Program-made: the position numbers and the translations under genes
DNA from: Delphinus delphis
Lineage: Eukaryota; Chordata; Mammalia; Artiodactyla; Delphinidae
Assembly (NCBI RefSeq): GCF_949987515.2
Contig: NC_082683.1
Location: 128,054,582-128,118,581, forward strand
Direction of reading: 5' to 3'
Length of the DNA stretch: 64,000 nucleotides
Shown: piece after piece, positions 27,093 to 59,546 of the stretch
How the letters are laid out: each line of letters begins with the position of its first letter
Position numbering within the stretch: position 1 is the first letter of the stretch
Notes under the pieces: generated by a model
Databases searched by the model: none
What the model was told of the DNA's origin: nothing
The model's input: only the letters and a program-made list of their open reading frames with translations

Positions 27093-27113
27093 ATGGAGAA
27101 AAGAGAACTAAAG
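27093..27113 (+). CDS. C1orf105: C1orf105 ortholog, coding exon 1
   Basis: ATG and seven codons (MEKRELK) run straight into a strong donor (AAAG|GTAGGA). I recognise MEKRELK as the N-terminus of the uncharacterised human protein C1orf105. The next exon (39727) continues in phase 0 with VSVPRFDK, and human reads SVP-FDKIPW at this point. The start is fixed by this match and by stop-containing sequence upstream. It is too short to show up as an ORF. The gene is on the plus strand as in human, between DNM3 and the later exons, with PIGC nested in the intron that follows. I know of no established molecular function for the protein. Confidence 0.85.
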
Positions 27114-36366: not shown

Positions 36367-37478
<1,112 letters not shown>

Positions 37479-39726: not shown

Positions 39727-39812
39727 GTTTCTGTTCCAAGATTTGACAAGATTCCGTGGTTTAGTGAGGCTAGCCTCATAAACAAGCCATTAGTGCTCAG
39801 CCTCCCGAAAAG
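39727..39812 (+). CDS. C1orf105: C1orf105 ortholog, coding exon 2
   Basis: The acceptor TTTCCTTCCAG (AG at 39725-39726) opens a frame of 28 codons beginning [17 protein letters not shown] and ending VLSLPK, plus two bases (AG) before the donor GTAATA at 39813. The peptide matches the human C1orf105 N-terminal region ([17 protein letters not shown]). Entry phase 0 fits exon 1. The exit phase fits exon 3, whose first base A completes an Arg codon. No stop or frameshift is seen. There is no recognised domain; the protein family is short, basic and uncharacterised. Confidence 0.9.
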
Positions 39813-42886: not shown

Positions 42887-42977
42887 ATATCCTCATTCCT
42901 CTGCCACTTTTCTGGTTTCATCCAAGAAGGCTATGAATTTGCCAATTTTGTTCCAAGTTCCAGATGTCTTATCTAAG
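42887..42977 (+). CDS. C1orf105: C1orf105 ortholog, coding exon 3
   Basis: The acceptor GATTCCTCAG (AG at 42885-42886) is followed by one base that completes Arg. Thirty codons then read [14 protein letters not shown] and [16 protein letters not shown], up to the donor AAG|GTACTC at 42978. The peptide matches human C1orf105 closely ([23 protein letters not shown]). Length and phases agree with exons 2 and 4. An old SINE begins only 36 bases past the donor. Confidence 0.92.
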
Positions 42978-51945: not shown

Positions 51946-52020
51946 GCCGGGAGGAACCGGAGAGACCCCACGCTGATCAGAAACAAGCAGCTGTGCTCCA
52001 CGTGTCGAGAAATGAAAACA
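51946..52020 (+). CDS. C1orf105: C1orf105 ortholog, coding exon 4
   Basis: A long TCTC-rich tract and CCGCACAG (AG at 51944-51945) open 25 codons reading AGRNRRDPTLIRNKQL then CSTCREMKT, ending at the donor GTAGTC (52021). The peptide matches human C1orf105 (RN-DP-L-RN-QLCSTC-EMK). The pair of cysteines in CSTC is conserved as I recall the human protein. Entry and exit are both phase 0. If the donor were not used, translation would run about 30 codons into the intron before a stop (52108). Confidence 0.9.
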
Positions 52021-52798
52021 GTAGTCGTGGAGGGTGGCAGACATGGGCGTGAGCATCCCCAGGGCACAGCTCTACCCCTTCCCCACCAAAGCCCAGCAGA
52101 GAGACCATGACGGGGCTTTGCAGGAAGGGCTGCAGATGAGCAGCTGCTGGTCCTGGGCACACCGTCTCCTGACACGATATGGTAAATCTCCCCATTTACA
52201 ACAAACCAAATGATAAATGAACCAAGGCAGCTTGGACCAGAGGGGAAGAGGCGAGACGAGCCATGCTGCTTTGGGCTCGTCGGGTAACTGCGCCTTACAG
52301 AGGTGCCGGAGGCTGTGGAGCCTCTACTCCCCCTTACCATGTCTCCAGCACAACACTCCAGCATCACAGCCATGAAACAAGCAGCTTCATCTTGGGGTTT
52401 GTCGTAAATTCAGACACGACCACAGTGGTGGTGGAGTTGGGGAGAGGTTCTCTGGTTCTTCCTGGCTATAGGGGTCGTTTGTAACTGGTGGTGGGGGATG
52501 GTGGGTGGGGGGAGTTTTAGGAAAAGAAAGGCTATCGGAGGGATGTGGGCTCCACAATTACGTAGCTCTGCCATCAGAGCTGCTGAAGAAAGAGGCGTGT
52601 TTTGGGGGGTGCTGTACATGTTGGAGCTAGGACTTGGGTCAGTTTAGGGGGTAGGGTTAGGGGCCTTCAGAGCGAGCACCAGGCTGAGTGGAAGGTTAAT
52701 ATAGCTAAACGGTTAGGTTAGGGTTTGGGAAGAGTCTCTCCAATTCCAATAGCCTGTGATTCTCCTTTGACTCGGGGAGGAAGGTGGGGCTAGATGTA

Positions 52799-53489: not shown

Positions 53490-53965
53490 CCTAAAAATAG
53501 AAGGGACTTCCTCAACTTGATATAGGGTGTCTACAAAAAACCCACAGCTAACAACGGACTTAGTGAGGAAAGACTGGATATTTTCCCCTAAGACCAGGGA
53601 CAAGACCAGGATGTGTGCTCTTGCCACTGCTGTTCACCATTGTACTGTACGTTCTAGTCAGGACAGTTAAGCCAAGAAAAAGAAATTAAAGGTATCCTGA
53701 TTAGAAAGGAAAACATAAAACTCTATTTGCAGATGATGTGATTTTATATATAGAAAGTCCTAAGGGATCCATAAAAAATCTGCTAGAGCTAATAAATGAG
53801 TACAGCAGAGTCACAAGACACAAGATCAATACACAGAAAATAATTTGATTCCTAGATATTCACAGTGGACAATCCAAAACTGAAATTAAGAAAACAATTC
53901 CATTTATAAAAGCATCAAAAAAGTAAACTACTTAGGAATAAATTTAACAAGAGAAAGGAGAAAGC
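53490..53965 (+). mobile_element. L1 LINE ORF2 fragment, plus strand
   Basis: The segment from GAAGGGACTTCCTCAACTTGAT to AGGAATAAATTTAACAAG follows the L1 ORF2 reverse-transcriptase region. TTTGCAGATGATGTGATTTT encodes the FADD catalytic motif. It is 5'- and 3'-truncated with broken frames. It ends 120 bases before C1orf105 exon 5. Confidence 0.9.
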
Positions 53966-54085
53966 AGAAAATGATTTATTAATGACTCATATTAAATACA
54001 ACCTGAGTTTGCTAAGGCAGTACGTTATTTCTTTAAATTAGAATGCAGTTTGGGGCATTGTTCTACATGGGACTTTCTTCCATTG

Positions 54086-54167
54086 GTGCAACCAAGAACT
54101 ATGATAATCCCAGATGATCTGAAACTATCCTTTAGCAACTATCCACAGCAAATACTATGAGTCATAG
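54086..54167 (+). pseudogene. C1orf105: C1orf105 exon 5, apparently inactivated
   Basis: From 54086 the frame reads VQPRTMIIPDDLKLSFSN, clearly the human C1orf105 segment VQPRTMKIPDDLK-SFEN. Two defects are visible. The bases before GTG are TG (54084-54085) where an AG acceptor is required. After the SFSN codons there are 28 bases where 14 are expected before the donor ATAG|GTAACT. This net 14-nt insertion shifts the frame, giving TGA at 54158-54160. Using the nearest AGs instead (54047-54048 or 54095-54096) leads in both cases to TGA at 54115-54117. Skipping the exon makes exon 6 read out of frame to a TGA. Without the 14 bases the exon is 68 nt and all seven exons sum to 184 codons, close to the 183 I recall for human. 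Confidence 0.75.
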
Positions 54168-56037
54168 GTAACTCAAAGATTTAAATTAGGACACAGCTTT
54201 GTATCTGGTTATATCGGTTGTGGATTGAGAAATACAATAAGTAAAATGCTTAGGGAATGCTTTAGGGATGAGCTTCTTGAGTGGTTTCATTTTCTGGTTA
54301 TAGTACACAGTTAGACAAAAAAAGTTGTTTTTAACCTCTTTGCCTGAACAGCTATGGAAACTACTGTAGAAACTGTAATCTTCCTTTCTACCTTCATAAG
54401 AATAGTACAAGGCATAGGGTAGGAGATATCTTTGATAAAACTTAGGCAGAACTAAATACAAATTCTCCATGTGAAGGACATATCTAATTCATAAAGTATG
54501 GGAGGTTGCACATAAATTTTCTTGAGTCTAAGACAGCCTCTGCTACTTTATATTGACTAAAATTACTATTATCAGTTTGTTGTCATTTGCTGCTTTCTTA
54601 TCAAGATCAAATATATCAAAAATAAAATCCAGTCAAAGTTGGATTAGTTGGATTTCAGGGTTTTTTCTGCATTTAACTACCAGACCGGGAAGAAGGACTA
54701 ATTTTTCACTTTATTAAAAAACTCAAAACGTGGAGTCACCCTGGATAAGGCACCAAGATAGGTGGACTTGCCTTGCGGTAGATGGTTGAAATGTAAACAT
54801 ACAGTCACCCTTCCATATGACTAAACAGAAAAGTGATATGTGATCTAATGGCAATCTTTAATTTGTTTCCTCTACAGAGAGCAGTAACGTGGGAAAATAA
54901 ATAGGTCTTTTTGTAACCTTAGATGACAGCAGGAGTTGTTATATTTCCCTGTATGAGCTCAGAGCCATTTGTACAAACTAAAATATAGACTCAGATACAC
55001 CAAAACCACGTCCTGGCCCAAGCAGACAGGGCCGTGGAAGAACTGTGTATTTGAGCATTACAGACTCCAGCACTAGTGACATTTACTGCCCCCCGACTCT
55101 ATACTATTGAAGTGCTCTTATATTGGATCACAATAAGAGTCATTCTAAAAAATATTCCTTACAGACTTTAAATGGAAAATTGGAATTTCTGAGCCAAAGG
55201 TACTCTTCTATGAAAGAGACTTTTGAAATGTTTTGTTCCAATTTATTTATCTTGCAAGTTTGGTACTTTAAAGAAAGTCTCAAATCCTGAGTCATTAATT
55301 GTGTGTGTGTTTTTTTAAAACAAGCTCTTATTCCTTTAAAGCTAAGACTGAAGTTTGAACCAATCNNNNNNNNNNNNNNNNNNNNNNNNNNNNNNNNNNN
55401 NNNNNNNNNNNNNNNNNNNNNNNNNNNNNNNNNNNNNNNNNNNNNNNNNNNNNNNNNNNNNNNNNNNNNNNNNNNNNNNNNNNNNNNNNNNNNNNNNNNN
55501 NNNNNNNNNNNNNNNNNNNNNNNNNNNNNNNNNNNNNNNNNNNNNNNNNNNNNNNNNNNNNNNNNTAGAAATGGTTTGAGCTTATATACCTTTTGGTTGA
55601 AGGTCACTTCCACAGTCTCAGCCACCAGGAGAAATAGGGAGTGATCAAGACATTTTTCTTGAGAATTGGAAGGTTCTAAAAAAATATTCTCAGTTTTGCA
55701 CTGATCTGGAAGTGTTGTTACTTTTTTTTCTGAGAACTGGAAGATTCTCTCCTTAATCCCTTCTATTTTCAGACCATATATTATCTGACAGTGGAATAAA
55801 ACATTTTTTTAAATGAAGGTTTTATCAAAATCCATGAAAATACTACTAAAGTAAAAAGAGCTTCAGAAGTGGTGGTCTTTGGCCAGTCATCTCACACTGC
55901 TCCCAGGTGGTCTGAGCACCAGGTTAACAGGTGCTGGGGTCGAGAGACCACCTGTGTTTTAAAATGTACAATGACACATTCCTTTCCACCAAGCTCTAGC
56001 CAAATCACTAATGTGTGTTCTTGCTTCTTCCAGTCAG
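54168..56037 (+). other. C1orf105: C1orf105 intron 5, with assembly gap
   Basis: AT-rich non-coding sequence with a run of 200 Ns. No gene or young repeat is recognised in the visible part. Open frames that cross the Ns are artefacts. Confidence 0.6.
55366..55565. other. Assembly gap (200 N)
   Basis: Exactly 200 unresolved bases, a round number that suggests a placeholder gap of unknown true size. Confidence 0.99.
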
Positions 56038-56105
56038 AATGATGAGTCTTCATCCACCAAAGGCCCAGACTGTACCCAGACGTCCTCGTGATGACATCCC
56101 AACAG
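56038..56105 (+). CDS. C1orf105: C1orf105 ortholog, coding exon 6
   Basis: The acceptor is taken as CTTCCAGTCAG (AG at 56036-56037). One base (A) completes the Arg split with exon 5's terminal AG. The frame then reads MMSLHPPKAQTV then PRRPRDDIPT and one base before the donor GTTTGC at 56106. It matches human C1orf105 MMSLH-PK-QTVP---DDI. An alternative AG four bases upstream would change the phase and is not favoured. The exon itself is open, but it can only be reached in frame if exon 5 is spliced correctly. Confidence 0.85.
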
Positions 56106-59393: not shown

Positions 59394-59407
59394 CCTCCAG
59401 AGGGCGC
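59394..59407 (+). promoter_or_regulatory. CTCF-like motif across a splice acceptor
   Basis: CCTCCAGAGGGCGC matches CCASYAGRKGGCRC at 13 of 14 positions. It overlaps the exon 7 acceptor and its first seven coding bases, so the match may be incidental. Confidence 0.35.
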
Positions 59408-59546
59408 TCGCTACAGACTGCCCATTCTGGGCCCCAGAACAGCTGTCTCCCGTGGACTGCTGTCAGATGCCTACGACACACTGCAGGACATGCAACTCTC
59501 TTCCTTGCCCAGAAAGGAACCAGTGGGCAAGACAATGAGGCAGTGA
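59401..59546 (+). CDS. C1orf105: C1orf105 ortholog, last coding exon 7
   Basis: The acceptor ACACTGTCCTCCAG (AG at 59399-59400) leads to two bases that complete Glu. Forty-seven codons then read [31 protein letters not shown] and [16 protein letters not shown], ending in TGA at 59544-59546. The match to the human C1orf105 C-terminus is strong ([26 protein letters not shown]). No defect is seen within the exon. The survival of this long, well conserved frame suggests that any loss of the gene is recent or that the exon is still used in some other way. Confidence 0.93.

Follow-up and report, generated by a model that had tools for sequence, protein, structure and literature searches.

The question raised by this locus is whether Delphinus delphis still makes the normal protein of C1orf105, a gene of which one coding exon appears broken. 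The window analysed here is the whole stretch of 64,000 nucleotides (G000:C1:128054582-128118581), taken from an assembly of 2.66 Gb in 630 contigs. Judged by similarity, the seven-exon gene in it is C1orf105, because homologs of that name match exons 2 to 5. The joined exon peptides, with an X at the break, match the Pfam profile PF15081 (DUF4548) with 278.8 bits (1.9e-83). Each of five exon-derived pieces also matches DUF4548 in a profile search, the exon-5 piece with 22.8 bits against a curated cut-off of 27 that is set for whole proteins. The sperm whale homolog named C1orf105 exhibits 94% identity over 99% of exons 2 to 5, and a Sousa chinensis protein without a product name exhibits 100% identity over 83%. 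The MEKRELK start is common to hippo, sheep and other homologs. Two homologs carry different names in the database, the pig protein P0013 ("SUN domain containing ossification factor") and the horseshoe bat protein P0030 ("Dynamin 3"); these names presumably belong to neighbouring genes. An overlap with PIGC on the opposite strand, which we take to be the arrangement of this gene family, is expected of C1orf105 and is present at the locus. PIGC itself is intact, with a GPI2 domain match of 315.5 bits, which speaks against a generally poor assembly in this region. Within exon 7, positions 59411-59428 are identical, in a by-eye comparison, to an 18-base portion of a human C1orf105 primer from the literature (PMC12620476). 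The features of the locus are as follows.

27093-27113, plus strand: C1orf105 exon 1, coding part (MEKRELK), followed by donor gtaggaaa
36367-37260, minus strand: PIGC open reading frame, 297 aa from Met (open frame 36367-37275), between C1orf105 exons 1 and 2
39727-39812, plus strand: C1orf105 exon 2, intact; the exon 2-3 piece matches DUF4548
42887-42977, plus strand: C1orf105 exon 3, intact; the exon 2-3 piece matches DUF4548
51946-52020, plus strand: C1orf105 exon 4, intact; last codon ACA, weak native donor ACA/gtagtc
52021-52048, plus strand: predicted 28-nt extension of exon 4 for a bypass of exon 5, ending at donor GGGC/gtgagc
54084-54085, plus strand: TG replacing the AG acceptor of C1orf105 exon 5
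54086-54167, plus strand: C1orf105 exon 5, broken, 82 nt against 68 (Pfam and homolog length); single DNA match
54136-54167, plus strand: alternative 32-nt exon opened by the AG at 54134-54135, whose use would preserve the frame
54143-54156, plus strand: 14 surplus bases in exon 5, edges uncertain by a few bases
54158-54160, plus strand: in-frame TGA in exon 5
55366-55565, no strand: assembly gap of 200 N between exons 5 and 6
56034-56037, plus strand: TCAG between the tandem exon-6 acceptors (bypass start 56034, native start 56038)
56038-56105, plus strand: C1orf105 exon 6, intact; DUF4548 match
59401-59546, plus strand: C1orf105 exon 7, intact, carrying the normal stop; DUF4548 match

The six exons other than exon 5 contain no stop and no frameshift, and their ten splice dinucleotides are all GT or AG. 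The original prediction had described them as open and correctly phased, and both translation and the splice sites bear this out. The damage that it placed in exon 5 is likewise present. The acceptor AG is replaced by TG in the sequence, and translation confirms that the frame runs to SFSN before shifting to a stop. Reading through the exon gives VQPRTMIIPDDLKLSFSN-YPQQIL and then TGA, for a total of 115 residues, and the stop lies 75 nt upstream of the last exon junction (79 nt if the upstream exon-6 acceptor is used). The expected length of 68 nt, which the original prediction took from the human protein, is supported by two further comparisons. In the PF15081 profile SFSN ends at position 93 and MMSLH starts at 99, and among the 88 proteins with a recognised exon-5 start motif in a homolog set of 105 database proteins, residue 23 is R or K in 84, which is where a 68-nt exon puts it. 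Exon 5 thus has 14 surplus bases, of which there is no second copy on either strand within the window. Where the C1orf105 family has a 68-nt exon with four residues and R before MMSLH, 82 nt and a TGA are found here. Under a unitary-pseudogene criterion of at least two independent inactivating lesions, the gene carries the TG acceptor and the 14-nt frameshift with its stop, both of them in exon 5; the probability that two random lesions fall in one exon is 0.17. The exon 5 donor (gtaactca) is good, and the 18 residues upstream of the insertion show no private amino-acid change. Exon 5 is almost certainly dead in this genome; it cannot be spliced and translated in the normal manner, and the normal protein has likely been lost.

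A technical explanation would be that the assembly or its consensus is wrong close to a contig break, or that the 200-N gap conceals a second, intact exon 5. The gap does lie 1.2 kb downstream of exon 5. This explanation is nevertheless very improbable, as the lesions are of two different kinds, exon 5 with its flanks has a single DNA match in the assembly (100%), and the Sousa model, which comes from a separate assembly, also lacks exon 5. A relic resembling L1 ORF2, with name and bounds assigned by eye, lies in the sense direction at about 53500-53960, roughly 100 nt upstream of exon 5; its reverse transcriptase match of 20.1 bits (E 0.00058) does not reach the curated cut-off of 29.6. Fourteen matches to a toothed-whale SINE consensus, down to 75%, are found in the window, and the best four are 93.5-96.5% identical; like the near-identity to Sousa, they indicate a dolphin.

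The consequences of the TG acceptor depend on what the spliceosome does in its place. In a human survey TG acceptors occur in genes, and among the sites surveyed TG is never the only 3' splice site; in human AG-to-TG mutants the exon is skipped or neighbouring AGs are used (PMC2374985). A functional TG 3' splice site would be expected as an alternative beside an AG no more than 28 nt away; in the dolphin gene, AG-opened exon starts 11 and 28 nt downstream are candidate sites only. The original prediction held that the nearest AGs and exon skipping all lead to early stops, and with native sites this is so. None of the four nearest AGs (exon starts 54042, 54049, 54097 and 54114) gives an open frame with the native exon-4 and exon-5 donors. 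A skip of exon 5 between native sites yields 108 residues, with the stop 14 nt upstream of the last junction; if the upstream exon-6 acceptor is used instead, the product has 93 residues and its stop lies 63 nt upstream of that junction. The claim fails for two other routes that stay open to the normal stop, one through the AG before 54136 and one that skips exon 5 from the donor after 52048 to the exon-6 start at 56034. The enumeration covered 11 exon-4 donors, 7 exon-6 acceptors, the TG and all exon-5 AGs in 53990-54167, and exon-5 donors in 54090-54300; 81 site combinations are open to the normal stop, and 0 of the 81 use the TG at 54084-54085.

Partial use of exon 5 could take two forms, an internal AG or the TG itself as acceptor. 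The internal AG would start a 32-nt exon at 54136 that is open with native donors and yields 172 aa, and the product matches DUF4548 with 242.6 bits. The AG at 54134-54135, however, is the third AG downstream and scores only 1.3, the 64th percentile of AGs in the window. For the TG, the occurrence of such acceptors in human genes is set against their never being the sole acceptor in the human survey (PMC2374985), and against the lack of any open route through 54084-54085 among the enumerated combinations. Partial use is very improbable.

The second route would amount to exon loss without gene loss, in which the donor after 52048 is joined to 56034 and a predicted 172-residue protein is kept. 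This is the best-scoring open route; the ten residues VVVEGGRHGL stand where the 22 codons of exon 5 were, and the product matches DUF4548 with 231.9 bits. By approximate splice-site matrices, both of its sites outscore the native ones, at 3.8 against -1.0 for the exon-4 donor and 10.5 against 6.9 for the exon-6 acceptor. The native donor score is the 51st percentile of GTs in the window. The last base of exon 4 is A (codon ACA); the residue before exon 5 is M in 61 of the 88 homologs, which as ATG implies a last base G, and T in 17 of 88. The two exon-6 acceptors lie 4 nt apart; the upstream one has the better score, yet it is the downstream one on which the family frame depends. The intactness of the other exons also favours the bypass. 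Against it stands a shuffle control in which an open route appears in 185/300 shuffles at a threshold of 2.0 and in 226/300 at 1.0, so openness alone is expected by chance; a threshold of -1.0 is uninformative, as one route sits in the unshuffled exon 4 and leaves all 300/300 shuffles open.

The bypass was listed by the enumeration before any homolog was seen, and was then met in cetacean annotation. The Sousa chinensis protein P0009 is the predicted bypass product with one residue different in the extension (CREMKTVVVEDGRHGLRMMSLH), and the gray whale protein P0097 is built in the same way and is equally long (CREMKMVVEGDGRDGLRMMSLH). The humpback protein P0047 does not use this path; it continues from exon 4 into intron sequence and terminates after 120 residues, a peptide whose fit suggests that the gtgagc donor is present in the humpback as well. 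All of these cetacean proteins are gene models, and none demonstrates the transcript in a tissue where expression of C1orf105 is likely. The Sousa gene set was built from protein projection and leucocyte RNA (PMC6531461), so the Sousa model may be a mechanical product of the same sort as the enumeration, and its database cluster contains one sequence. The sperm whale cluster contains two, and clusters of this size mean that few dolphin-like C1orf105 proteins are in the database. Among the alternatives to loss of the protein, a working bypass ranks first, as a possibility with perhaps one chance in a handful or slightly better.

Models without exon 5 are not confined to the dolphin's relatives. 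Seventeen of the 105 rows miss the exon-5 motif, and three of these (P0042, P0064 and P0067) carry a variant of it by eye, which leaves 14 rows with no recognisable exon 5: the three cetacean proteins P0009, P0047 and P0097, and 11 that are not named as cetacean. Among the latter, bear P0062 and donkey P0078 read from exon 4 onward with exon 5 skipped, and the sheep-hybrid P0039 runs from exon 4 straight to exon 7. These non-cetacean models deserve little weight as biology. They indicate that a model can lack exon 5 with no lesion behind it, which weakens the evidence from the cetacean ones. Three models from cats, P0068, P0077 and P0093 (cheetah, Geoffroy's cat), are isoforms with an extra segment, KRKRTARGNGGHKDK..., directly after exon 4, which suggests that the exon 4-5 region is prone to extra exons.

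The exon is kept in the 68-nt frame in the rows for hippo, deer, sheep, goat, bison, buffalo, camel and pig, and in the sperm whale protein P0001, where it ends in NCISFR. This sperm whale end (SSSNCISFR) is unlike the one common in mammals, for example SFANIMSHR in hippo, and possibly reflects an early relaxation of the same exon. The original prediction proposed a recent, lineage-specific loss; a recent event limited to a single lineage is doubtful, given that exon 5 is absent from the models of three of the four named cetacean species (Sousa, humpback and gray whale). The sperm whale groups with the dolphins. Since it keeps the exon, the exon would have been lost at least twice in cetaceans, provided that the models are right. 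More than one lineage is probably affected, and by more than one event. An extended form of this idea, which is unlikely but worth stating, is that cetaceans lost exon 5 at least twice (in dolphins and in baleen whales) and substituted a predicted 28 nt of former intron for it. Such a replacement would work by moving the exon-4 donor and the exon-6 acceptor together, so that a shortened protein stays in frame.

Constraint on the remaining exons was compared by amino-acid branch lengths on a fixed topology. From the cetacean ancestor to the window the branch measures 0.036 over exons 2-4 and 0.093 over exons 6-7. The sperm whale branch gives 0.048 and 0.044 for the same two sets, and the hippo branch 0.049 and 0.089. 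The humpback value for exons 2-4 is 0.074, above that of the dolphin, and the gray whale value for exons 6-7 is 0.0145, its row for exons 2-4 being left out because of a mis-annotated start. The dolphin value of 0.093 is no larger than the hippo value allows and is by itself no sign of relaxation. With numbers this small, and a family that is fast elsewhere too, the branch lengths do not decide the matter of constraint. Residues private to the dolphin pair occur at 1 site in exons 2-4 and at 4 sites in exons 6-7; one of these private residues is an S at a site that is F in all 20 of the 20 other rows. The absence of further lesions was assessed by neutral simulation on a target of 486 coding bases and the ten splice dinucleotides other than those of exon 5. 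The coding target comprised exons 1-4, 6 and 7, with the stop codon excluded and the two final bases of exon 5 included. With assumed rates, indel ratios and divergence times, the probability of no further lesion is 0.37-0.61 at 10 My and 0.03-0.20 at 34 My. For a young loss, therefore, the intact frame says nothing in favour of function; for an old one it would count to some degree.

Taken together, the explanation that is somewhat favoured is that the normal C1orf105 protein, of about 184 residues, is no longer made and that the gene is decaying. It is supported by two different lesions in one exon measured against a family length of 68 nt, by the single assembly match to exon 5 and the lack of an open route via the TG, by the Sousa, humpback and gray whale models, and by the scarcity of dolphin-like proteins in the database together with the private S. 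It is opposed by the six clean exons and by an in-frame bypass annotated in relatives, by the argument for remaining constraint that an old loss without further lesions would carry, and by the unchanged part of exon 5 before the insertion and the eleven non-cetacean models that lack the exon. The spliceosome would likely skip exon 5 or take neighbouring AGs, as in the human AG-to-TG mutants (PMC2374985). A skip between native sites would give the 108-residue protein, whose transcript would likely escape nonsense-mediated decay with its stop so close to the last junction. A transcript in which the 82-nt exon is read would likely be degraded, its stop after 115 residues lying well upstream of that junction. 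Exons 6 and 7 may then be drifting, with translation still covering the first half of the coding sequence; the lower divergence of exons 2-4 than of exons 6-7 would be weakly in keeping with this. The original prediction was that C1orf105 appears to be losing or to have lost its function. Its narrower part, that the normal protein is gone, is likely. Gene-wide loss cannot be concluded from this, because open splicing routes exist and one of them is annotated in Sousa and, equally long, in the gray whale, though routes of this kind are common by chance. Loss of all C1orf105 function is somewhat more likely than not.

C1orf105 is listed among human reproductive tract-specific genes (PMC7436996), and its protein is reported in human atrial tissue with a function that remains to be elucidated (PMC12620476). 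The literature search returned no paper pairing C1orf105 with cetaceans, the supplementary tables of gene-loss screens lying outside its coverage, and no paper on DUF4548; of the 37 papers listed for C1orf105 by itself, none has cetaceans in its title. No solved structure matches exons 2-5 at E values up to 1, and a scan of viral contigs with a word from exon 3 gave no match. The dolphin break, the baleen models without exon 5 and the intact sperm whale exon allow one to ask what C1orf105 is dispensable for, and make the locus a clean test case of exon loss against gene loss.

The locus can be set beside three known systems. The main text of the Gene Loss DB paper on cetacean gene inactivations (PMC12462620) contains no word starting with C1orf. 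The cases it describes are similar in that lesions disrupt reading frame or splicing while the gene is still recognisable; they differ in that C1orf105 has both lesions in one exon with the rest open, and in that dolphin and baleen models lack an exon that the sperm whale keeps. The C1orf105 family itself (PF15081, DUF4548) is alike in its other exons, their phases and the antisense overlap with PIGC, whereas exon 5 of the dolphin cannot be read through. The human AG-to-TG mutants (PMC2374985) share a TG where the AG of a 3' splice site is normal, but the dolphin TG stands in an assembled genome rather than in a patient and has a frameshifting insertion beside it.
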